DNA of 32,472 bases from a virus. The position numbers were made by a program, and so were the translations under genes. The stretch lies in IMG/VR virus record IMGVR_UViG_3300043499_000030, positions 1-32,472 of that record. One strand, 5' to 3'. The notes below the pieces were generated by a model. It did not search any database. It was not told where the DNA came from and worked only from the letters and a program-made list of their open reading frames with translations. Below are positions 4,818-32,472 of this stretch, piece by piece (position 1 is the first letter of the stretch; every line of letters begins with the position of its first letter).

Positions 4818-5708
4818 ATGAACTTCCCAGACAGCGACGACCTCGACGCCCTCTTCACCGCCACCGGCCCGGCCGCTTCGCCGGCCGGCCGCACGCCGCC
4901 GGCTTCGTACAAGCCGGCGTTCACCGAGAAGTGCGCCAAGTGCAACGGCACCGGCAAGTTCATCACGCCGCGCGGCCATGTGTTCGGCAAGTGCTTCGCC
5001 TGCGACGGCGCCGGCTCCAAGACGTTCGCCACCTCGCGCGGCACCCGCGTCAAGGCCAAGGCGCAGCGCGAGGCCCGCCAGGACGCCGAGCGCGTCGAGA
5101 ACGCCACCGCGTTCAAGGACGAGAACCCGAACGAGTGGGCCTGGATGCTGGCGACGGCGCCACGCTGGCAGCTGATCCAATCGTTCCTCGAAGCGATCAC
5201 CAAGTGGGGCAGCCTCACCGATCGACAGCTGGAGGTGGTGCGCAACGGTATGCTGCGCGACGCCGATCGCGCCGCCGCCAAGGTCACCGCGGCGCCGGCG
5301 GTCGAGGCGGCCGGCGTCGATCGGCTCAAGGCGGCGTTCGACACCGCGGCCGCCTACACCGCAGCCAAGGCCAAGGGCCTCAAGGTCAAGTCGCCGCGCA
5401 TCACGCTCAACGGCGTCACCATCAAGCCGGCCAAGGCACACAGCCGCAACCCCGGCGGGCTGTACGCCTACGATCCCGAGGGCGACTACCTCGGCAAGAT
5501 CGTCGACGGCCGCTTCTTCGCGGTCGCCACCTGCACCGACAAGCAGAAGGCCGACGTCGTCGCCTTCGTCTCGAACCCGGACCCGGCGCAGGCCGCCAAG
5601 GTGTATGGCCAGGAGACGGGCATCTGCTGCGTCTGCAACGCCACGCTGCGCTCGGAGTGGCGGCTGCGCGGCATCGGCCCGATCTGCGCCGAGAAGTTCG
5701 GGTGGTAG
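4818..5708 (+). CDS. DnaJ-type zinc-finger and DUF6011-like protein
   Basis: A 296-aa protein with two zinc-binding regions. Near the N-terminus, CAKCNGTGKF and, after about 14 residues, CFACDGAGSK are two CxxCxGxG units as in the DnaJ zinc finger. The C-terminus, CCVCNATLR followed by RGIGPICAEKFGW, matches the short Cys-rich DUF6011 pattern (CxxC...GIGPxCA). The middle has a lysine-rich linker and a stretch around NPNEWAWMLATAPRW resembling helical regions of other phage early proteins. Start ATG 4818 follows GGAG by 7 bases and is served by its own promoter. The frame continues open upstream through the previous gene, which is an artefact of GC-rich DNA. Role unknown, probably nucleic-acid or protein binding during replication. 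Confidence 0.88.
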   Translation: MNFPDSDDLDALFTATGPAASPAGRTPPASYKPAFTEKCAKCNGTGKFITPRGHVFGKCFACDGAGSKTFATSRGTRVKAKAQREARQDAERVENATAFKDENPNEWAWMLATAPRWQLIQSFLEAITKWGSLTDRQLEVVRNGMLRDADRAAAKVTAAPAVEAAGVDRLKAAFDTAAAYTAAKAKGLKVKSPRITLNGVTIKPAKAHSRNPGGLYAYDPEGDYLGKIVDGRFFAVATCTDKQKADVVAFVSNPDPAQAAKVYGQETGICCVCNATLRSEWRLRGIGPICAEKFGW

Positions 5709-11333: not shown

Positions 11334-14323
11334 AGGCCACCACCGATCCGGCGCCGTGGCACCGTCAGCTCGCGGCCGTCCGGCGAGATGAAGCGCTGCC
11401 CTGGCGGCAGGATCAGCTCGTCGCCCGGCTTCGACACCCTGACCGGCGGCTTCTCCAGCTGCCGGGCGTAGAGGTGGTCGGAACTCTCCTGCAGCGCCGC
11501 CCGGATCGCCGCCTGCCCCTGCTGGCCGGACGAGGCCTCGACCGCGTCGACGAAGCGGTGCCGGCGGGCCGACTTGTCGGCCAGATCCCGCGCCGTGTCG
11601 CCGACCGCCGGCAGGTAGGCCGGCAGGTTACGGGCCGCCTCGCTCGGGTTGACCGCGGCGCCGCTGGTGCGCTGCATGAAGCCGCCTTCGAAGTTGTTCA
11701 TCGCGGCTTTCGAGCGCCGGTAGGCGTCCGACGCCGTCAGGTTGCCGATCAGCGGCACGTCACGCAACCGCTCGGCCGGGACGGTCAGCGCCTTGCCCAT
11801 CTGCAGCTCGTTGTCGAGCAGATGCAGGTCCGGCCGCACCCGCTGCACGAACTCCTGCGCATGGGCTTGGTCGGCGGTCATCTCCTCCTTCTTCGGCTGC
11901 GGTGCGCCGGGTGGCACCGCATAGGGCTGCTGCGGCGTGCCGGGCGGCGCATAGGGTCGCTCGAACTGCGTGCCGCCAGCCGCCAGCGTGTCCGGCTTGG
12001 TGGCTTGCCGCTGCTTCTCTGCGAGGTCGGCGATAGCCTTCTCGCGCTCGCGCTGCACATAGTCTGGGCTATTCTCACGCTGCATCTTGGCCAGCTCTTC
12101 GCGCAGCTTGCCGGCGATCGCCGGCTGGTTGGCCTCGTCGGCGAACTTGATCTTGCGTTCGAGGTTTTTCATCGGCGCCTCGCGCGACGTCTCCTGGTGC
12201 TTCAGCTCGGCTGCCTGCCAGCGCTCGCGCTGGTCGACATAGCGTGCCCAGTTCTTCTCGTCGGTCCAGGCCCGCTCCTTCTCCAGCAGCGCCGCCTGAT
12301 CCGCGGCGTATTGCCGGGTGGTTTCACTGGCTTGCGGACTGCGCATGGCATTGCGCCAGTACGCCTCGCGCGGGCTGAGCGGCGTGCGCTGCGGTTCGAT
12401 CGGCGGATCGCCGGGGTGCGGCGCGATCAGGTCCGAGCCGTCGTCCTGTGGCGTGCCCGGCGGCTTGGTGATCCGATCGTTCGGTGTGCGCGGCCCTGGC
12501 GCCGGCGCGATCGTGCTGCCGCTGAGCGGGGCCGGGTTGAACATGCTGGGGTCGAGCTGGCCGGCCTGGGCCAGCTGCACCGGCCGCTCAGACCCAGTCG
12601 TCGGGGAAGCCGGGACCGTAGTCGGTCCCGCCACGGTAGGGTCCGGGTCCGGCACCGCCGGGGCCGGGGGCTGTTGCTGTTGCTGATTGAGCAGCGTGTC
12701 GGTGATCGCGTTGCGCCGGGCGGCGACGTCGGCGTCGAGGCTCGGGCTGGCCGAGCCGATCGTGCCGAGCCGGCCGAGCGGCGCCGCGTCGTTCTGGACG
12801 TCGCCGCGGGAGGCAGTAGCGCCACGCCCGAGCAGACTGGGCCGACCGGCACCAAGCGCCACCTCCCGCAGCAGGCGGTCCTGGGCGGTGTCCTCGGGCG
12901 TGGCTGGAGCAGCTGCCTGCTGCGGCACGGCAGGCTGCTCGTCCATGAGCGGGCTGGGTCGGACGGCCAGGGTTGTGACCGGCGGCCCCTGCGGCGCAGC
13001 CGGTGCCCGCGCCTGGGCCGGCGCCGGGCCATCCTGGGGGCTACCCAGGGCGGCCTGCAGCTTGCGCATGAAGTCCTCGCCGTAGCTGCGCACGGTCAGC
13101 CGGCCGTGCGCGTCGGTGGCGCCGAGGTTGTACATGCCGCGGTCGCCGCCATACCAGTTGCGGGCGGCACCCTCCTCGCCGTACTTGGCGACGGCGTCGC
13201 CGAACTGCTGCCGGAACTGGGTGTGCTGGGCGTTCGGGTTGTTGAGGAACTCCTGCGGCGTCATGCGGTAGCCGAGCGATGCCTCGGTGCGGTCGCCGAT
13301 CTCGTCGGACATGACTTGGAACTTACCCAGCGCCCGGCCGCCCTTGGTCGGGACGCCGACCTCGCCGTAGGGATTGCGGGAGCCGCCGCTCTCGATCCCT
13401 GAGATCGCCTTCTCCCAGGCCACCTTGCGCGGGTCGTCCATCGGCCCCTCGAACGGGATGTCGGCCGCGGTCTGCGCCACCGGCGCCGGCGCCGGCGCCT
13501 GGGCCGGCGGCTCGGGCGGCGTGTAGGCCGCCTGCTGGATCGGCGGCAGCGCCGCCTGATCGGTCATCGCCCCGGCCCGGTTGGCCTCATGCTGCGGGCT
13601 GACCAGCGCCTGGGCGATCCGATCGCGCACCACGGTGTTGTTCTTGGCGAGCAGCTCGGCACGGAGCGCGTCCTTGGCCGCACCGGGGATCTCGGGCAGC
13701 GCCGCCTGCTGGTACGGCGGCGCGATGCTGCTCTGGTCCTCGGCGATCGTCGCCTGCTCGATCGGGTACTGGGTCGGGCTGGGCGCCATGGTCACCGGCG
13801 CCGGCGCCGCACTGTCGGCGTTGTAGACCGGCGCCACGTTCTTGACCGTGGACGGCCCCTCGCCGCTGTAGGACATGATGCTGCCCTCGACCGGGTTGAA
13901 CTGGCCGGAGGCCAGGGCCGGGTCGCTGTCGGGCATGATCAGCGCCGGGTCGGTCAGCACCGCCTTGTCGGTCGGCACCGGCCGCGGCGCCGGCACGGCG
14001 CCGGGGCCGCGTGTGCTGCTGCCGGGGCCGCGTGTGCTGCTGCCGGGTGCTGCCGGCGTCGTCGCCGGTGGCGCCCCGGTCTGGATCGCCCGGTCGCCCT
14101 GCTTGAACCTCTCCTCGGCCTGCCGGTCGCGCCAGTCGCGCACCGCCTCTCCCAGGCTCTCGCCGAAGTAGGTCAGGCCTTCGCCCAGGGTCTTGGGGAA
14201 GCCCTTCTTGCTGGCCGCGATCGCCGCGGCGATCGCCCGCCGGCGCTTCAACTCCTCCAGCGTCGGTGCCTCGGCGTTGCCACCGAAGATGAACGGGATC
14301 GTGTCGCTGTCGATCAGTGCCAT
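11330..14323 (-). CDS. Virion-associated lytic transglycosylase, ejection protein
   Basis: A 997-aa protein. Residues about 300-420 form an SLT-like lysozyme-fold domain: EKAISGIESGGSRNPYG with the likely catalytic Glu311, then ALGKFQVMSDEIG, and later EGAARNWYGGDRGMYNLG. Flanking parts are very Pro/Ala/Gln-rich linkers, followed by a Lys/Glu/Arg-rich helical region (about residues 640-780) and a helical C-terminal domain. Such proteins travel inside the capsid and locally open peptidoglycan during DNA entry, as gp16 does in T7. The start ATG follows the S74-protein stop by one base. The N-terminal linker carries a duplicated heptapeptide. Confidence 0.87.
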   Translation of the reverse strand: MALIDSDTIPFIFGGNAEAPTLEELKRRRAIAAAIAASKKGFPKTLGEGLTYFGESLGEAVRDWRDRQAEERFKQGDRAIQTGAPPATTPAAPGSSTRGPGSSTRGPGAVPAPRPVPTDKAVLTDPALIMPDSDPALASGQFNPVEGSIMSYSGEGPSTVKNVAPVYNADSAAPAPVTMAPSPTQYPIEQATIAEDQSSIAPPYQQAALPEIPGAAKDALRAELLAKNNTVVRDRIAQALVSPQHEANRAGAMTDQAALPPIQQAAYTPPEPPAQAPAPAPVAQTAADIPFEGPMDDPRKVAWEKAISGIESGGSRNPYGEVGVPTKGGRALGKFQVMSDEIGDRTEASLGYRMTPQEFLNNPNAQHTQFRQQFGDAVAKYGEEGAARNWYGGDRGMYNLGATDAHGRLTVRSYGEDFMRKLQAALGSPQDGPAPAQARAPAAPQGPPVTTLAVRPSPLMDEQPAVPQQAAAPATPEDTAQDRLLREVALGAGRPSLLGRGATASRGDVQNDAAPLGRLGTIGSASPSLDADVAARRNAITDTLLNQQQQQPPAPAVPDPDPTVAGPTTVPASPTTGSERPVQLAQAGQLDPSMFNPAPLSGSTIAPAPGPRTPNDRITKPPGTPQDDGSDLIAPHPGDPPIEPQRTPLSPREAYWRNAMRSPQASETTRQYAADQAALLEKERAWTDEKNWARYVDQRERWQAAELKHQETSREAPMKNLERKIKFADEANQPAIAGKLREELAKMQRENSPDYVQREREKAIADLAEKQRQATKPDTLAAGGTQFERPYAPPGTPQQPYAVPPGAPQPKKEEMTADQAHAQEFVQRVRPDLHLLDNELQMGKALTVPAERLRDVPLIGNLTASDAYRRSKAAMNNFEGGFMQRTSGAAVNPSEAARNLPAYLPAVGDTARDLADKSARRHRFVDAVEASSGQQGQAAIRAALQESSDHLYARQLEKPPVRVSKPGDELILPPGQRFISPDGRELTVPRRRIGGGL
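14000..14041. repeat. Perfect 21-bp tandem duplication inside the transglycosylase gene
   Basis: The 21 bases at 14000-14020 are repeated exactly at 14021-14041. On the - strand they encode two copies of SSTRGPG in the disordered N-terminal linker. The repeat keeps the frame. Identical third bases point to recent slippage or duplication. Confidence 0.93.
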
Positions 14324-27289: not shown

Positions 27290-27954
27290 CAGTTCCTCCA
27301 GTCCGGCGGTAACCACGGCAGCGGCGGCATGATCGGGCCGGGCTTGCCGCGCGGCGTTGGCCACGGCTGCCCTGGCGGCGGGTATGGCGACGGCGCCGGC
27401 GGCCCCTGGATCGGCGGCCGGCCGGCCATCACGCTCTGCTCATCGTTGGTTGGCCGTCCGGCGCGAGGATCGACCGGCGGCGCGTTGCGCAGCAGCTCCT
27501 CGTAAGCTGCATCCAGCTCGGCCTGGGTCCGCTGCGGCAGGTCACGCTGCGCCCACTGCGGCGGCGGGTTCTGCCGGAACGCACGGTCGACGATACGGTC
27601 CAACTCGTCGAGGCTCTCCTTCCTGGCGAGGCGGCCCTCGAATTGATCGGCCGTCGACGCCTGCAGCGGATGCGGGAAAGCCTGCGGCGGCGGGTTGTCG
27701 ATCGCCGCCTTGAAGCCGTGCGGGTCATGGCCAAACGTGCGATCGCGGCCGGCGTCCATCTGCAGTGCGCTCTGGTCGATCAGGTCGCCCCAGCCGCGGG
27801 CCGGCCGCATGTAGCCCGGCACGATCACCGGCTCATTGCCGCTAAACTCATGCAGGCTGGTCGGTCGCCGGTCGTCGATGTTGGTCGACGCCGGCATCGC
27901 CTCGTAGTTATCCTGCCGCGCCAGCTCGCCCATGATCCAGTCGTCGTCGGCCAT
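27289..27954 (-). CDS. Hypothetical virion protein with DDWIMG N-terminus
   Basis: A 221-aa, Pro/Arg/Asp-rich protein directly after portal. ATG 27954 shares a base with the portal stop (TGATG); a GTG one codon earlier also begins the frame. The N-terminal MADDDWIMGELARQDNY matches the next protein's start. Elsewhere a helical Glu/Arg segment is seen (QFEGRLARKESLDELDRIVD, ELDAAYEELLRN), followed by a Pro-rich C-terminus (PPIQGPPAPSPYPPPGQPW). No enzyme motif. Probably a disordered internal or packaging-linked protein; unrecognised. Confidence 0.74.
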   Translation of the reverse strand: MADDDWIMGELARQDNYEAMPASTNIDDRRPTSLHEFSGNEPVIVPGYMRPARGWGDLIDQSALQMDAGRDRTFGHDPHGFKAAIDNPPPQAFPHPLQASTADQFEGRLARKESLDELDRIVDRAFRQNPPPQWAQRDLPQRTQAELDAAYEELLRNAPPVDPRAGRPTNDEQSVMAGRPPIQGPPAPSPYPPPGQPWPTPRGKPGPIMPPLPWLPPDWRN

Positions 27955-30272
27955 CACTGCCTCCGGGGTGCCGGCGGTTGCGTCATCTTGAGCTGCTGCT
28001 GCGCGCGCTGGTCGGCTGAGCGCTGCGCCTGCTCGCTCGATCGCTGGTTGGCGAGCTGCGCCGCCTGCTGCGCCTTCTGCGCGTTCAGCGCCATGTCCTG
28101 GTTCTTCTCCAGCACATGCATCTGATGCGCCTCGCGGCTCTCGACCACCTTCTGCGCCTGCACCTGCTGCTTGCCTTCGGTGTCGGACAGCTTGATCTGG
28201 GCATTGGCCCAGGCAATGCGGCGCTCGTTGGCGAGCGTCTCCTGATGCTGGCGGTCCTTCTGCACCAGCTCGTCCTGCTTGACCTTGAGATCGCCGGCGT
28301 CGCTCTGCTTCTTCTGCTCGATCTTCGCCATCTCGATCTCTTTCATCAGCTTGAGCTTCTCCTCCTCCGGGTTCGGCTGCGGCTGCGTGCTCTTCATCTT
28401 CATCTGCTCGACCAGCTCGTCGATCGTGCCGTCGAGCGATCGGCCGGCGCGGAACGGCGCGGTCGCGAACTTCAGCAGCTCGCCGCAGAACTCGGCGGTC
28501 TTAGGCTCGGCGCTGATCATCTGCGACAGCTGCGGCAGCAGCGTGCTGAGCACGCCGATGAACTCGGTGCGCCGCTGCTTCTCGGCGTTCTCGTCGGCCA
28601 TGATCGTGCTGTCGGTTTCGATGTCGAGCACGAAGCTCTTGGCGCGGTTGTCCTTCAGGAACTTGAGCACCTGCTCGATCGTCGGCTTCTCGCGCAGCTG
28701 GTTGATGGTCTGGACGCCGGCCTCCTGCGCCTTCTGCATCTGCTGGGCGATCTGCTGCGCCTGCTCGGGGTTCTGCTGCGCCATCTGCTGCACCTGCGGG
28801 TTCTGCATCAGCGTCTGCACCTGCTGCTGCTGCGCCTGCATCTGCTTCATCACCTCGGCGATCTTCTGCTGCACCATCTGCTGGGTCGGCAGCTGGGTCT
28901 GCGACATCTCGATGATGGTCACCGGGCTGAACTTGTCGGTGATGATGTCGAGCGTGATCTCGACCAGATCGCGCGCCAGCCGCACCAGCTCCTGCTGCTT
29001 GTCCTTGATGCGCTTGGAGCCGTACTCGGTCTTGAGCTGCTGGGCGCCGAGCGTCTCGGCCGGGTCGGTGGCGCCGCGCATGATGTCGGACAGGCCCATG
29101 ATCTGGTAGATGTCCTCGATCACCTGCTTGCGCAGTGCGACGAGGCCGGTCACCGTCTGCGCGATCATGTCGATCGGCATCCAGATGATCACTTCCTTCG
29201 AGCCGCCGAACGCCGCCCAGTTGCTGATCGGCACCAGCAGGCGGCCCGGCGTCTTGGCCTTGATCGCGGCCTGGATCGCGTCGCCCAGCTCGGCGCCGCC
29301 GGCCGGATAGAAGCCCTTGACCTCCAGCGCGTCGCTCAGCGCGTGGATCCGGCCGGTCAGCAGGTTCAGCTCATCGAGCTGGTCGCGATACTGCAGCACA
29401 TCAGGGACAGGTATCAGCGAGCCGCGCTGCACCGTGCCGTAGGCCGGCCGCGGGCACGGGAAGAAGTTGCACAGCTCCAGATGCGGGTTGTCCTCGTCGA
29501 GGATCTTCTCGCAGCCCTGCGCGACCCAGAGCACGCGCTGGTCCTTCTTCGACCAGATCTCCCAGAACTTGGCCCGCTCGCGGTTGTCGGCGCCGCCGAC
29601 CTCCTTGCTCTCCTTGTTCACGCGGTACTCGGCGTTCTGGTACTCGTCGCCGCTGGTCTTGCGGAAGCGCTTGCGCGCCTGCGCCCGCGTCAGGTAGCTG
29701 GCGCCGGCGACCCAGCCGACCTCTTCCCAGTTGCGCGAGATCGAGTGCAGGAAGTCGCGCCGGTGCTTGAAGTCGAGGCAAACCTTCTCGCGATTGTAGT
29801 AGCCCTTGCCGGCGCTCTCGTAGCGCGCCCACAGCACGCCGCGGCTGATCAGCGCCACGTCGTCGCGTACCAGCTTCATCAGGTCATCGATGCGCGTGAT
29901 GTCGAACGCCACCACGGCGCAGCGCTCGGCGATCTCGCTGGCGGCCTGATAGACCGGCCGGCGGTCCTTGAACTTCGGCACCACCACGGGCTGCGGCGGC
30001 TTGGCGTAGATGCTCGGCTTGATCACCTCGCAGTTCGCCCAGAACATCGCGAACTCTTTGTCGCGCGTCATGCTCGACAGCCGCTCCAGCGACGCGAACA
30101 GCTTGTCGATCTTGTCGCAGTGGTCGTTCCACTGCTCGAAGGCGTCCTCGCTCTCGGTCAGCAGGTTGAGCCACGCCTTGGCGCTCTTCGGCTCGACGCT
30201 CGGGTTGTAGTCCTGATCGTCGACGCTCTCGTCGGCCGGCGCCGGCTTCGGGTTGTCGTTGTCGTCGATCAT
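27954..30272 (-). CDS. Portal protein
   Basis: A 772-aa protein forming the DNA-entry ring; it follows the terminase by an ATGA overlap. The first 450 residues hold the portal core: FASLERLSSMTRDKEFAMFW, AVVAFDITRIDDLMKLVRDD, YRDQLDELNLLTGRIHALSD, RKQVIEDIYQIMGLSDIMRG and TDPAETLGAQQLKTEYGSKR, all typical of large podophage portals. From about residue 470 a very Gln-rich helical stretch (QMQAQQQQVQTLMQNPQVQQ) and further coiled coils to the C-terminus (KAQQAAQLANQRSSEQAQRS) give the long barrel. Its length is at the upper end for portals, as expected with a barrel extension. Confidence 0.95.
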   Translation of the reverse strand: MIDDNDNPKPAPADESVDDQDYNPSVEPKSAKAWLNLLTESEDAFEQWNDHCDKIDKLFASLERLSSMTRDKEFAMFWANCEVIKPSIYAKPPQPVVVPKFKDRRPVYQAASEIAERCAVVAFDITRIDDLMKLVRDDVALISRGVLWARYESAGKGYYNREKVCLDFKHRRDFLHSISRNWEEVGWVAGASYLTRAQARKRFRKTSGDEYQNAEYRVNKESKEVGGADNRERAKFWEIWSKKDQRVLWVAQGCEKILDEDNPHLELCNFFPCPRPAYGTVQRGSLIPVPDVLQYRDQLDELNLLTGRIHALSDALEVKGFYPAGGAELGDAIQAAIKAKTPGRLLVPISNWAAFGGSKEVIIWMPIDMIAQTVTGLVALRKQVIEDIYQIMGLSDIMRGATDPAETLGAQQLKTEYGSKRIKDKQQELVRLARDLVEITLDIITDKFSPVTIIEMSQTQLPTQQMVQQKIAEVMKQMQAQQQQVQTLMQNPQVQQMAQQNPEQAQQIAQQMQKAQEAGVQTINQLREKPTIEQVLKFLKDNRAKSFVLDIETDSTIMADENAEKQRRTEFIGVLSTLLPQLSQMISAEPKTAEFCGELLKFATAPFRAGRSLDGTIDELVEQMKMKSTQPQPNPEEEKLKLMKEIEMAKIEQKKQSDAGDLKVKQDELVQKDRQHQETLANERRIAWANAQIKLSDTEGKQQVQAQKVVESREAHQMHVLEKNQDMALNAQKAQQAAQLANQRSSEQAQRSADQRAQQQLKMTQPPAPRRQ

Positions 30273-31630
30273 AGGCGCAGCCCTCCACGCGGTTCAGCCG
30301 GCGGCGGGATCATGAAGCCGCGCGGCTGCTCGACCTTGACCTCGCGCAGCGGCGCGTGCCGCCACGCCAGCGACAGATAGCGGAAGGCGTCAGCCGGATG
30401 CGACGTCCAATCGTGGACGTGGCTGGCGCGGAACGCCTTCGTCTCGTCGTCCCACTCGCGATGATACAGCTCCAGCGCGGCGATCAGCTTGTCCTCGCAG
30501 CGCGGATGAAACACGCACAGCGGCAGCGTGCGGCGCACCGCGTTGCGGCCGTCCTCCAGCGTCGCCCACGGCACCATCAGCGGATGCAGGCCGAGCTGCT
30601 GCATCGTCTCGACCCTGGTGCGGCCGCTGCCCCACTCCTTCACCTTGGCGTCATGCGGGACGTAATCGTGGCCGCGCATCCAGCCGTAGTCGCGCTCGCG
30701 CTGCTCGATCGCGACGAGGTGGCTGTCGAGGCCGACGCCGCTCGCCACATAGACGTCGAGGATGATCAGCTGCGCACCCTGCAGCTGAAACCAGATCACC
30801 ACGTTGTCGTCCGTCACCCCGAGATCCCAGGCGCGGTGAACGTACTGGTCGGGCAGCGCGTCGACCTCAAGCACGCGACCTTCCTCGCGCACCTGCGCCA
30901 TCTCCAGCGCATAGAAGGCGCCGAGCACGCTCGCGGTCCAGTCGCAGTACAGCTCCTGGCGATAGCTCGCCCGGCCGGCGTCGGCGCCGTACAGGTCGAC
31001 CATCTCCTTCATCGTCTCGTCGAGCTGCGCCGGCGTCAGCATCCCGGTCTGCTCGACCGTCAGCAGCTCGCTGAACCAGCTCGGCGTCTGCTGCGCGTGC
31101 TTGAACATCGCGTGCGCGTGGTTGCGGCCGCGCGGTGTCGTAATGAAGATCGCCCAGCCGTTGTTCTCTTCGAGGATCGGTCTGTAATACGCCCAGGCGC
31201 TCGGGTTCGCGAGCGCGTACTCGCTGAACACGATGCCCGCGGTCGAGGCGCCGACCGTCGAGCTGTACTGATCGGAGCCGATGCATTGCACGGTCGAGCC
31301 GTTGACCAAACGCAGGAACATCTCGCTCTCGTTGGTGCTCGATCGGATCTCATGCGGGAACGCCTCGTCGATGCGCCGCTTGCCGCTGTGCGGATTGACC
31401 GCGGTCCAGATCGCCTTGCGGGCCTGCGCATACTCTGGTGCGCAGTACCAGTACGATGCCGGCCGCTCGATCGCCTTGACGGCGCAGTGATGCAGGCAGA
31501 CGTCGTCCTTGCCAGCGCGTCGGTGCCAGACCGCCATGGCACGCTTGCCGCCGGCCTGCAGGTACTGCCACAGCTTCATCTGGTGATGCCGCGGCGTCCA
31601 TCCGTTGTTGGGTAGCGTGATCTCAGGCAT
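30269..31630 (-). CDS. terL: Terminase large subunit
   Basis: A 453-aa packaging ATPase-nuclease. The N-terminal ATPase has a variant Walker A WHRRAGKDD (K41), a Walker B-type region GIVFSEYALANP (E137) and the coupling motif ITTPRGRNH. The C-terminal RNase H-like nuclease shows AWDLGVTDDN (D269), a middle PHDAKVKEWG and HDWTSHPADAFRYL, each with an acidic residue for metal binding. It lies two genes after the Acb2-like gene and directly before portal, the usual terminase-portal order. Length is typical. The start ATG 31630 overlaps the preceding small gene by 8 bases. Confidence 0.96.
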   Translation of the reverse strand: MPEITLPNNGWTPRHHQMKLWQYLQAGGKRAMAVWHRRAGKDDVCLHHCAVKAIERPASYWYCAPEYAQARKAIWTAVNPHSGKRRIDEAFPHEIRSSTNESEMFLRLVNGSTVQCIGSDQYSSTVGASTAGIVFSEYALANPSAWAYYRPILEENNGWAIFITTPRGRNHAHAMFKHAQQTPSWFSELLTVEQTGMLTPAQLDETMKEMVDLYGADAGRASYRQELYCDWTASVLGAFYALEMAQVREEGRVLEVDALPDQYVHRAWDLGVTDDNVVIWFQLQGAQLIILDVYVASGVGLDSHLVAIEQRERDYGWMRGHDYVPHDAKVKEWGSGRTRVETMQQLGLHPLMVPWATLEDGRNAVRRTLPLCVFHPRCEDKLIAALELYHREWDDETKAFRASHVHDWTSHPADAFRYLSLAWRHAPLREVKVEQPRGFMIPPPAEPRGGLRL

Positions 31631-31715
31631 AGCTCACCAGCCAGATCACCAGCACCACAACGCCGATCGAGATCAACGCGCCGATGATGATTGCCAGCAG
31701 CGCGTTGTCGCTCAT
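31623..31715 (-). CDS. 30-residue membrane peptide
   Basis: A short frame with ATG 31715 overlapping the stop of the gene before it (ATGA) and ending 8 bases inside the terminase gene. After MSDNALL it is almost continuous hydrophobic residues (AIIIGALISIGVVVLVIWLV) and ends SYA, so it should form one membrane helix. The tight overlaps on both sides support a real gene. No function can be assigned; tiny membrane peptides here might be holin-like. Confidence 0.68.
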   Translation of the reverse strand: MSDNALLAIIIGALISIGVVVLVIWLVSYA

Positions 31716-31822
31716 GTCACCACCACCAGCACCGCGACGATCAGCATCGCGCCGATCGTGCCGGCGACGTAGACCCAGAGCGGCGTCAGCGTCCCATCAG
31801 GTTGTGTGACGGGGCCGAGCAT
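31712..31822 (-). CDS. 36-residue membrane peptide
   Basis: A 36-aa frame starting in a TGATG overlap with the preceding stop and ending in ATGA with the next. The first 15 residues are polar (MLGPVTQPDGTLTPL), the rest is one hydrophobic helix (WVYVAGTIGAMLIVAVLVVV). It is therefore an N-out or N-in single-pass peptide. With the following gene it makes a pair of small membrane proteins between the Acb2-like gene and terminase, an unusual place. The function is unknown. Confidence 0.7.
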   Translation of the reverse strand: MLGPVTQPDGTLTPLWVYVAGTIGAMLIVAVLVVVT

Positions 31823-32061
31823 CACGTCACCGGCTCGAAGTTGTCTTTGAAGTACTGCGCCGCGACCAGCCACTGGTCAGCGTGGTTGTGCCTATTGCGT
31901 GCGATCATGTCACCCAGCTTCGGCGAGCCTGCTTGCTGATCGGCCGTCGAGATGTCGACGTGGTTCATGCTCTCGCCGGGAACGTAGTAGCGCAGCTCGG
32001 CGATCTGCGTGCGCCGGTACATGCGGAACGGGTTGTCGATCTCGTAGCTCGCCTCGCTCAT
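31822..32061 (-). CDS. Small conserved phage protein
   Basis: A 79-aa protein. ATG 32061 overlaps the Acb2-like stop (ATGA); upstream frame is shadow. Sequence: MSEASYEIDNPFRMYRR, then YYVPGESMNHVDISTADQQA, GSPKLGDMIARNRHNHADQW and LVAAQYFKDNFEPVT. The final part, MIARNRHNHADQWLVAAQYF, reads as a helix with His residues. I recall short proteins of this type before terminase genes in podophages but know no function. It is probably a packaging or regulatory accessory. Confidence 0.8.
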   Translation of the reverse strand: MSEASYEIDNPFRMYRRTQIAELRYYVPGESMNHVDISTADQQAGSPKLGDMIARNRHNHADQWLVAAQYFKDNFEPVT

Positions 32062-32264
32062 CGCTGGCTCTGCACGTTCTGATCGGACGGCGTGGTCGCG
32101 GCCTTCACCGCCCACATCGCCGCTTCCTCGTAAGCTGTCTGTGCCAGCGCCGCGAGCCGCGGGTCGAGCCGCTTGAGATCTTCGCACAGATCGATCAAGT
32201 CGGCGGTGTAGCGCTTGATCTTGTCGACCATGCTGGTGCCGCCCGGATTGAAGTTCTCGCGCAC
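32058..32264 (-). CDS. Acb2/Tad1-hairpin-like small protein, candidate anti-CBASS sponge
   Basis: A 68-aa helical protein. A GTG at 32264 is chosen because AGGAG lies 8 bases upstream; an in-frame ATG (32231) is the alternative. After a short N-terminal stretch (RENFNPGGTSMVDK) come two helices: IKRYTADLIDLCEDLKRL, then a DPR turn, then LAALAQTAYEEAAMWAVKAA. The second helix with EEAxMWAxKA after a short turn is the pattern I know from the Acb2/Tad1 hairpin family, whose members form oligomers that trap cyclic-nucleotide or ADPR-type signals and so block CBASS or Thoeris defence. The function is inferred from this pattern; ligand residues cannot be verified by eye. Confidence 0.72.
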   Translation of the reverse strand: MRENFNPGGTSMVDKIKRYTADLIDLCEDLKRLDPRLAALAQTAYEEAAMWAVKAATTPSDQNVQSQR

Positions 32265-32284
32265 ACGCGCTGCTCCTAAGCTGC

Positions 32285-32472
32285 TCACTTGCCGCCTCCC
32301 TCGATGATGTGTCTGATCGTCACCTTGATGTCCTCGCCATCGGCGCCGGTCACCGGCTGCACCGCCTTGCCCCAGCCGCGCTCCCACAGCATGTGGATCG
32401 CCCGCAGGCGTGCGTCCTCCTGGCCCTTCGTGTTCTGTGCGATGGCCGCCACAATGCGAACAGTGCTGGGCG
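32285..32472 (-). CDS. 3' end of a pre-terminase gene (partial)
   Basis: An open - strand frame entering from the right edge and ending at TGA 32285-32287; about 61 residues are visible. It reads VRIVAAIAQNTKGQEDARLR, AIHMLWERGWGKAVQPVTGA, DGEDIKVTIRHIIEGGGK. This style (helical RxxAxxxLxxRGWGK followed by a short GEDG...IKVxIRxI strand) is that of the C-terminal region of small HTH proteins encoded before terminase genes, often small terminase subunit-like. The N-terminus lies outside the window, so the identification is provisional. The next gene starts 20 bases later. Confidence 0.72.
   Translation of the reverse strand, partial: PSTVRIVAAIAQNTKGQEDARLRAIHMLWERGWGKAVQPVTGADGEDIKVTIRHIIEGGGK

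Follow-up and report, generated by a model that had tools for sequence, protein, structure and literature searches.

The window is the entire IMG/VR virus record analyzed here, 32,472 bp in length with a GC content of 68%. The features at the end of the window that bear on the acb2-like gene are listed below, beginning with the portal gene.

27954..30272, minus strand: portal protein, 772 aa (phrog_12082, E 2.5e-174)
30269..31630, minus strand: terminase large subunit (TerL), 453 aa (phrog_2, E 9e-25)
31623..31715, minus strand: 30-aa peptide, apparently with a single transmembrane segment; it overlaps the start of TerL
31712..31822, minus strand: 36-aa peptide, apparently with a single transmembrane segment; the sister phage L131 lacks it
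31822..32061, minus strand: 79-aa ORF directly downstream of the hairpin gene, joined to it by an ATGA overlap and with relatives in 24 IMG/VR loci
32058..32288, minus strand: acb2-like hairpin gene, 76 aa, with a probable GTG start at 32288 and a TGA stop at 32058-32060, supported by Pfam, the N-terminal block, and the AF2 model
32295..32300, minus strand: ribosome-binding site GGGAGG, 6 nt ahead of the GTG start, read directly from the sequence
32285..32472, minus strand: C-terminal part of the upstream gene, weakly TerS-like (phrog_10899, terminase small subunit, E 6e-4; phrog_15261, E 9e-5)

A second record, L002 (IMGVR_UViG_3300043496_000022), is 100% identical to the window over 5,412 bp and reaches 1,918 bp past the window end. 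The upstream TerS-like gene is complete on L002 at positions 1873-2106 and encodes 77 aa. The gene order on the minus strand begins with an HTH protein (Pfam HTH_3) and a 74-aa ORF, both on L002, followed by the 77-aa TerS-like gene and the hairpin gene. The 79-aa ORF, the 36-aa and 30-aa membrane peptides, TerL, and the portal gene come next. The original prediction had placed the hairpin gene between a pre-terminase gene and two membrane peptides; these neighbors are present, but the 79-aa ORF (31822-32061) intervenes. A PAPS-reductase-like gene (PF01507) is located on the minus strand of L002 at 441-1217 and is transcribed divergently with respect to the HTH gene at the head of the packaging operon. 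This gene is present in the sister phage L131 and at no other TerL-relative locus examined.

The ORF first proposed at 32058-32264 is real, but it is encoded on the minus strand and probably begins 24 bases before the proposed start. The plus-strand translation of 32058-32264 gave no family match and was rejected as the wrong strand. The acb2-like gene is most likely complement(32058..32288), encoding 76 aa from a GTG start at 32288 rather than from 32264. An N-terminal block, S[IL]Gx.RVRxxFNPS, is common to nearly all relatives and begins at GTG 32288 in the window. The same codon overlaps the stop of the upstream 77-aa gene (GTGA), and the start was assigned on the basis of the conserved block, the GGGAGG sequence, and this overlap. 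At the other end, the stop codon of the acb2-like gene overlaps the ATG of the downstream 79-aa ORF (ATGA).

Proteins that are 60-99% identical to the acb2-like protein are encoded at 80 IMG/VR loci (the best 80 of 175). Over 61 aligned codons, the relatives have a median protein identity of 82% to the window, with a pS of 0.69 and a pN of 0.125. The ORF is therefore far beyond chance, and purifying selection acts strongly along the entire hairpin. Since synonymous change is near saturation, the likeness of the proteins is old and maintained. Recent transfer was considered as the cause of the high protein identity and was ruled out by the near-saturated synonymous sites.

The acb2-like protein matches Pfam PF24729 (Acb2_Tad1_hairpin) at 45.1 bits with an E value of 1.1e-11, well above the curated cut-off of 27 bits. 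The same model matches 39/39 sampled relatives, together with the proven sponges T4 Vs.4 (7e-20) and PaMx41 gp24 (3.6e-16). PHROG 717, the Vs.4 homologue family as used by Jenson et al. (PMC10097602), matches the acb2-like protein at 1.9e-5, T4 Vs.4 at 5e-32, and PaMx41-type Acb2 at 3e-32. The phrog_717 profile contains 289 positions, of which only the C-terminal stretch (199-289) corresponds to the hairpin, and thus longer proteins with an N-terminal extension seem to exist. A profile-profile alignment (hhalign) against 14 T4- and PaMx41-type members gave a probability of 94% and an E value of 1.6e-7. The T4-type sequence was taken from Shigella phage sb4, and its first 38 residues are exactly those of the Vs.4 PDB chain. 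In a PDB sequence search the top match was Vs.4 (7uq2) at a nonsignificant E value of 0.16-0.18. PADLOC and NCBIfam searches with the acb2-like protein returned no match. On two profile libraries, the acb2-like gene is a divergent member of the known Acb2 family. The Acb2/Tad1-like identity was to be given up if neither a profile match nor a helical hairpin was found; the well-scoring Pfam match, the PHROG 717 match, and a confident helical-hairpin model are the opposite outcome. Acb2 proteins are already known as a family, in fold and in function; the divergent conserved subfamily in uncultured phages is new within the limited literature covered.

Other members of the family were encountered in these searches. 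Acb2-type genes at L127 2501-2827 (MK511065.1) and L128 601-831 (MT354570.1) carry the deposited annotation 'NAD/FAD-utilizing enzyme apparently involved in cell division'. This label looks wrong because, when aligned, the proteins match the invariant Acb2 residues Y, N, K, and R. Two Acb2_Tad1_hairpin genes are found in the contig of L010 (G007:C1:692-844 and 5192-5359) and two in the contig of L027 (G019:C1:16001-16153 and 12566-12679); the paired genes are possibly sponges with different ligands. One Rhodobacteraceae MAG (L092-L098) contains at least seven relatives of the hairpin gene on different contigs, as if they belonged to a multi-copy prophage or mobile element.

The structure of the acb2-like protein was predicted as a monomer with AF2 using the 39-sequence alignment. 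The model has a pLDDT of 92.7 and a pTM of 0.78, with helices at residues 4-8, 19-38, and 43-65 and no strands. The features noticed at the outset, namely two amphipathic helices, a DPR turn, and an EEAAMWAVKA segment, are real, with the long helices at 19-38 and 43-65 in the model and the turn at D42-P43-R44. Acb2 was previously described as one short N-terminal helix and two long antiparallel helices (PMC10419184), and the predicted topology matches this description. Acb2/Tad1 proteins are absent from the lists returned by Foldseek and VIA-align against the PDB, searches in which short hairpins score weakly.

Previously, the contacts of Vs.4 with cGAMP were reported as stacking by Y8 and F82 and polar interactions by Y8, H11, K23, and R79, and the hexamer residues as L29, A66, A73, and A77 (Jenson et al., PMC10097602). 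The residue register was set using Pfam coordinates and hhalign, where profile position 2 is the F of FNPS and corresponds to Vs.4 Y8. An ungapped alignment by eye had placed T28 opposite the nucleotide-contacting lysine; this was rejected because the Pfam coordinates and hhalign both put K25 there. The hexamer positions L29, A66, A73, and A77 correspond to L31, A49, A56, and A60, which are identical in 38-39 of the 39 relatives. The contact positions Y8, K23, and R79 appear as F13, K25, and K62, either retained or conservatively changed. The contacts H11 and F82 are lost, with G16 (S in most relatives) and T65 at the respective positions. F13, K62, T65, and C35 are invariant in the 39 relatives, and K25 is found in 38/39. 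The residue N20, invariant among the sampled known members, is replaced by D22, as in most relatives. The subfamily shows little or no variation at C35 (the F33 interface position), at R44 in the turn of the hairpin, and across the S-x-G-x-x-R-V-R block of the N-terminus.

Two of the Vs.4 positions have been associated with the Panoptes system. A T68M substitution was found in a Panoptes-resistant T4-like phage (PMC12657230), and a T4 mutant that escapes Panoptes is altered at F82 (PMC12657218). The T68 position corresponds to T51, which is kept in 39/39 relatives. The mapping of residues across the 39 relatives shows a conserved oligomer surface and a pocket that is partly changed relative to Vs.4. 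The absence of H11 and of the stacking F82 (here T65) suggests that the range of ligands differs from that of T4 Vs.4.

The changed positions could be taken to mean that the protein is a true family member with a shifted pocket that mainly binds something other than the cyclic dinucleotides of Vs.4; such ligands could be gcADPR, a different defense nucleotide, or cyclic trinucleotides alone. The fixation of T65 for F82 and K62 for R79 in 39/39 relatives, the change of N20 to D22 in most of them, and the near-invariance of C35, R44, and the S-x-G-x-x-R-V-R block are consistent with this explanation. However, the F82 position is occupied by Ala or Thr in the PaMx41-type members, some of which are proven CBASS inhibitors, and thus an aromatic residue is not required there. 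The positions Y8/F13, K23/K25, and T68/T51 are also retained. A pocket shifted to this extent is regarded as unlikely.

As a putative sponge for CBASS-type signals, the window protein may be compared with three known proteins. It shares with T4 Acb2/Vs.4 (PDB 7UQ2; PMC10097602) the PF24729 and PHROG 717 matches, the helical hairpin, the hexamer positions, K23, and T68, with Y8 and R79 conservatively changed. It differs from Vs.4 in its length (76 versus 88 aa), in a shorter N-terminal loop bearing FNPS, and in the residues T65 for F82, G16/S for H11, and D22 for N20. The T4-type gene adjoins regB and vs and is located outside the packaging module, unlike the window gene. Acb2 of Pseudomonas phage PaMx41 and its relatives (gp24; PMC10419184) has the same Pfam domain and likewise no stacking residue at the F82 position (Ala). 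It is about 93 aa in length without the S-x-G-x-x-R-V-R N-terminus that is present in the 76-aa window protein, and the gene of PaMx41 is found at the end of the replication block, unlike the window gene. The name of the Pfam hairpin model refers to both Acb2 and Tad1, the latter being the Thoeris sponge with a C-terminal hairpin. In contrast to Tad1, the window protein has no N-terminal beta-sheet domain and is all-helical over its 76 aa in the AF2 model.

The sister phage L131 (IMGVR_UViG_3300044492_000096) was compared with the window and with L002 using blastn. L131 is 100% identical to the window over 3,003 bp that run from the second membrane peptide through TerL into the portal gene. 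On the upstream side the two are 99.6% identical over 2,106 bp, ending exactly at the stop codon of the 77-aa gene. The segment between these two regions is exchanged:

31718..32284 of the window versus 2884-3234 of L131, no strand assigned: exchanged segment, from blastn of L131 against the window and L002

The window side of this segment carries acb2, the 79-aa ORF, and the first membrane peptide. The L131 side carries an unrelated 39-aa membrane peptide and a 79-aa ORF that is 82% identical to that of the window. PF24729 is absent from the whole 14.4-kb L131 contig, which is a partial contig. A further locus, L154 (in the contig of L135, G058:C1:12693-12860), was found through the 79-aa ORF and not through the terminase, and has a hairpin gene near that ORF, a hint that the two genes may travel together at times.

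The region ahead of TerL was surveyed in more distant relatives. A hairpin gene is found near TerL in 4 of the 68 TerL relatives (57-100% identity, at least about 1 kb upstream). Two of the four are PaMx41/T4-type copies located downstream of TerL; the others are those of L224 and of the window's own phage. The PF24729 domain is present in 2/33 contigs of TerL relatives, 32 of which are about 38 kb or longer. The 77-aa gene is recognizable at 46 loci, and in 19 of these it abuts TerL with a gap of at most 60 bp. The gap is larger in the remaining 27, up to 654 bp, and is filled mostly with unrelated small ORFs that include membrane peptides and zinc-ribbon-like and coiled-coil-like proteins. 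Ten slot ORFs from the sister phage and other relatives gave no Pfam match. The gap between the 77-aa gene and TerL across L155-L234 is a candidate cargo slot. Given the clean pair of phages with and without the gene, and a slot that is empty or variable in relatives, the acb2-like gene is accessory, moron-like cargo and not a core gene. The cargo position before TerL and the with/without pair are new within the limited literature covered; packaging-module members may have been mentioned earlier elsewhere.

The hairpin gene is nevertheless a frequent neighbor of TerL when the search is started from the hairpin gene itself. It is located on the same strand and within 1.5 kb of a phrog_2-detected TerL in 19/26 contigs, where 2.1 are expected at random; these contigs were fetched via the hairpin gene, are partly interrelated, and include many fragments, so that nominal P values cannot be accepted at face value. 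Among contigs of at least 20 kb, the same arrangement is found in 12/15. These counts favor a packaging or head-assembly helper whose hairpin works with TerL or the TerS-like neighbor and whose likeness to Acb2 reflects shared ancestry only. However, the TerL and portal DNA shared with L131 is identical and is found there without the gene (in a partial contig), the TerS-like gene abuts TerL with nothing between them in 19/46 relatives, and the domain is largely missing from the contigs of TerL relatives. The hairpin protein is approximately 80-90% conserved beside terminases that are often approximately 30% identical or not alignable or detectable, the opposite of partner co-divergence. Family members are also found far from TerL. 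A packaging role read from the frequent TerL neighborhood was rejected on the basis of the sister phage and the slot survey, and a helper of this kind is considered very unlikely.

A conserved relic, or a nucleotide-handling role outside of defense, is less probable still and can hardly be credited. Strong purifying selection along the entire hairpin, with synonymous change near saturation, argues against a relic, and the patchy carriage and clean exchange fit a conditionally useful anti-defense gene.

The gene would be expressed together with its late neighbors, as indicated by the gene order, the two 4-base overlaps, and a promoter scan. In 4.2 kb, the scan for sigma-70 promoters detected no promoter-like site; phage promoters are outside its coverage. 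The 4-base overlaps on both sides make translation together with the neighboring genes likely, and late timing is probable from the same arrangement. The original prediction implied that a late location was odd for an anti-defense factor. This point is weakened by several Acb2-type genes that are also found in head or packaging modules of other phages. Homologues in Vibrio phage D184, Serratia phage BF, Thiohalocapsa phage MD04, Salmonella phage Arash, and Beetrevirus BR141c adjoin genes for the portal, the head protease, the scaffold, or other proteins that are likely structural; they are of PaMx41-type sequence, and their neighbors differ from those of the window gene. A late-module position is thus recurrent for the Acb2 family.

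Bacteria use alarm nucleotides to trigger suicide during infection. The acb2-like protein is probably a divergent, hexameric nucleotide sponge of the Acb2 family that sequesters CBASS-type signals and is carried as cargo before TerL. The sponge function is suggested by family membership and by the conserved interface and pocket positions. Six 76-aa hairpins would assemble into a hexamer, as in T4 Vs.4 and Pseudomonas Acb2. Pockets between the protomers would bind cyclic oligonucleotide alarm signals via F13, K25, and K62 (for Y8, K23, and R79), and the trimer ends may bind cyclic oligonucleotides as well. The signals would be held without being cut, and the suicide effectors of CBASS, and perhaps of related systems, would not be triggered. 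Because the gene lies between the TerS-like gene and TerL with its frame overlapping both neighbors, the sponge would probably be made with the packaging and head genes. A Bradyrhizobium genome (L085) with a related gene also carries SMODS nucleotidyltransferases and two other genomes do not; the host inference drawn from this is weak and is given no weight as evidence.

A broader proposal is that phages of this clade, approximately 42 kb in size, have a dedicated cargo slot between TerL and the TerS-like gene for small counter-defense genes that are made together with the packaging operon, and that the Acb2 pocket has been retuned to another alarm nucleotide or to avoid triggering Panoptes. 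This proposal is speculative and rather doubtful at present. If the slot is dedicated in this way, the other unrelated small genes found in it would be counter-defense candidates.

The near-identical phages with and without the gene are strong evidence of optional cargo and provide a ready-made comparison. The subfamily pocket differs from that of T4 Vs.4 at defined positions, and its ligand specificity is therefore directly testable. The variable gap before TerL provides a short list of unrelated small genes for counter-defense screening.
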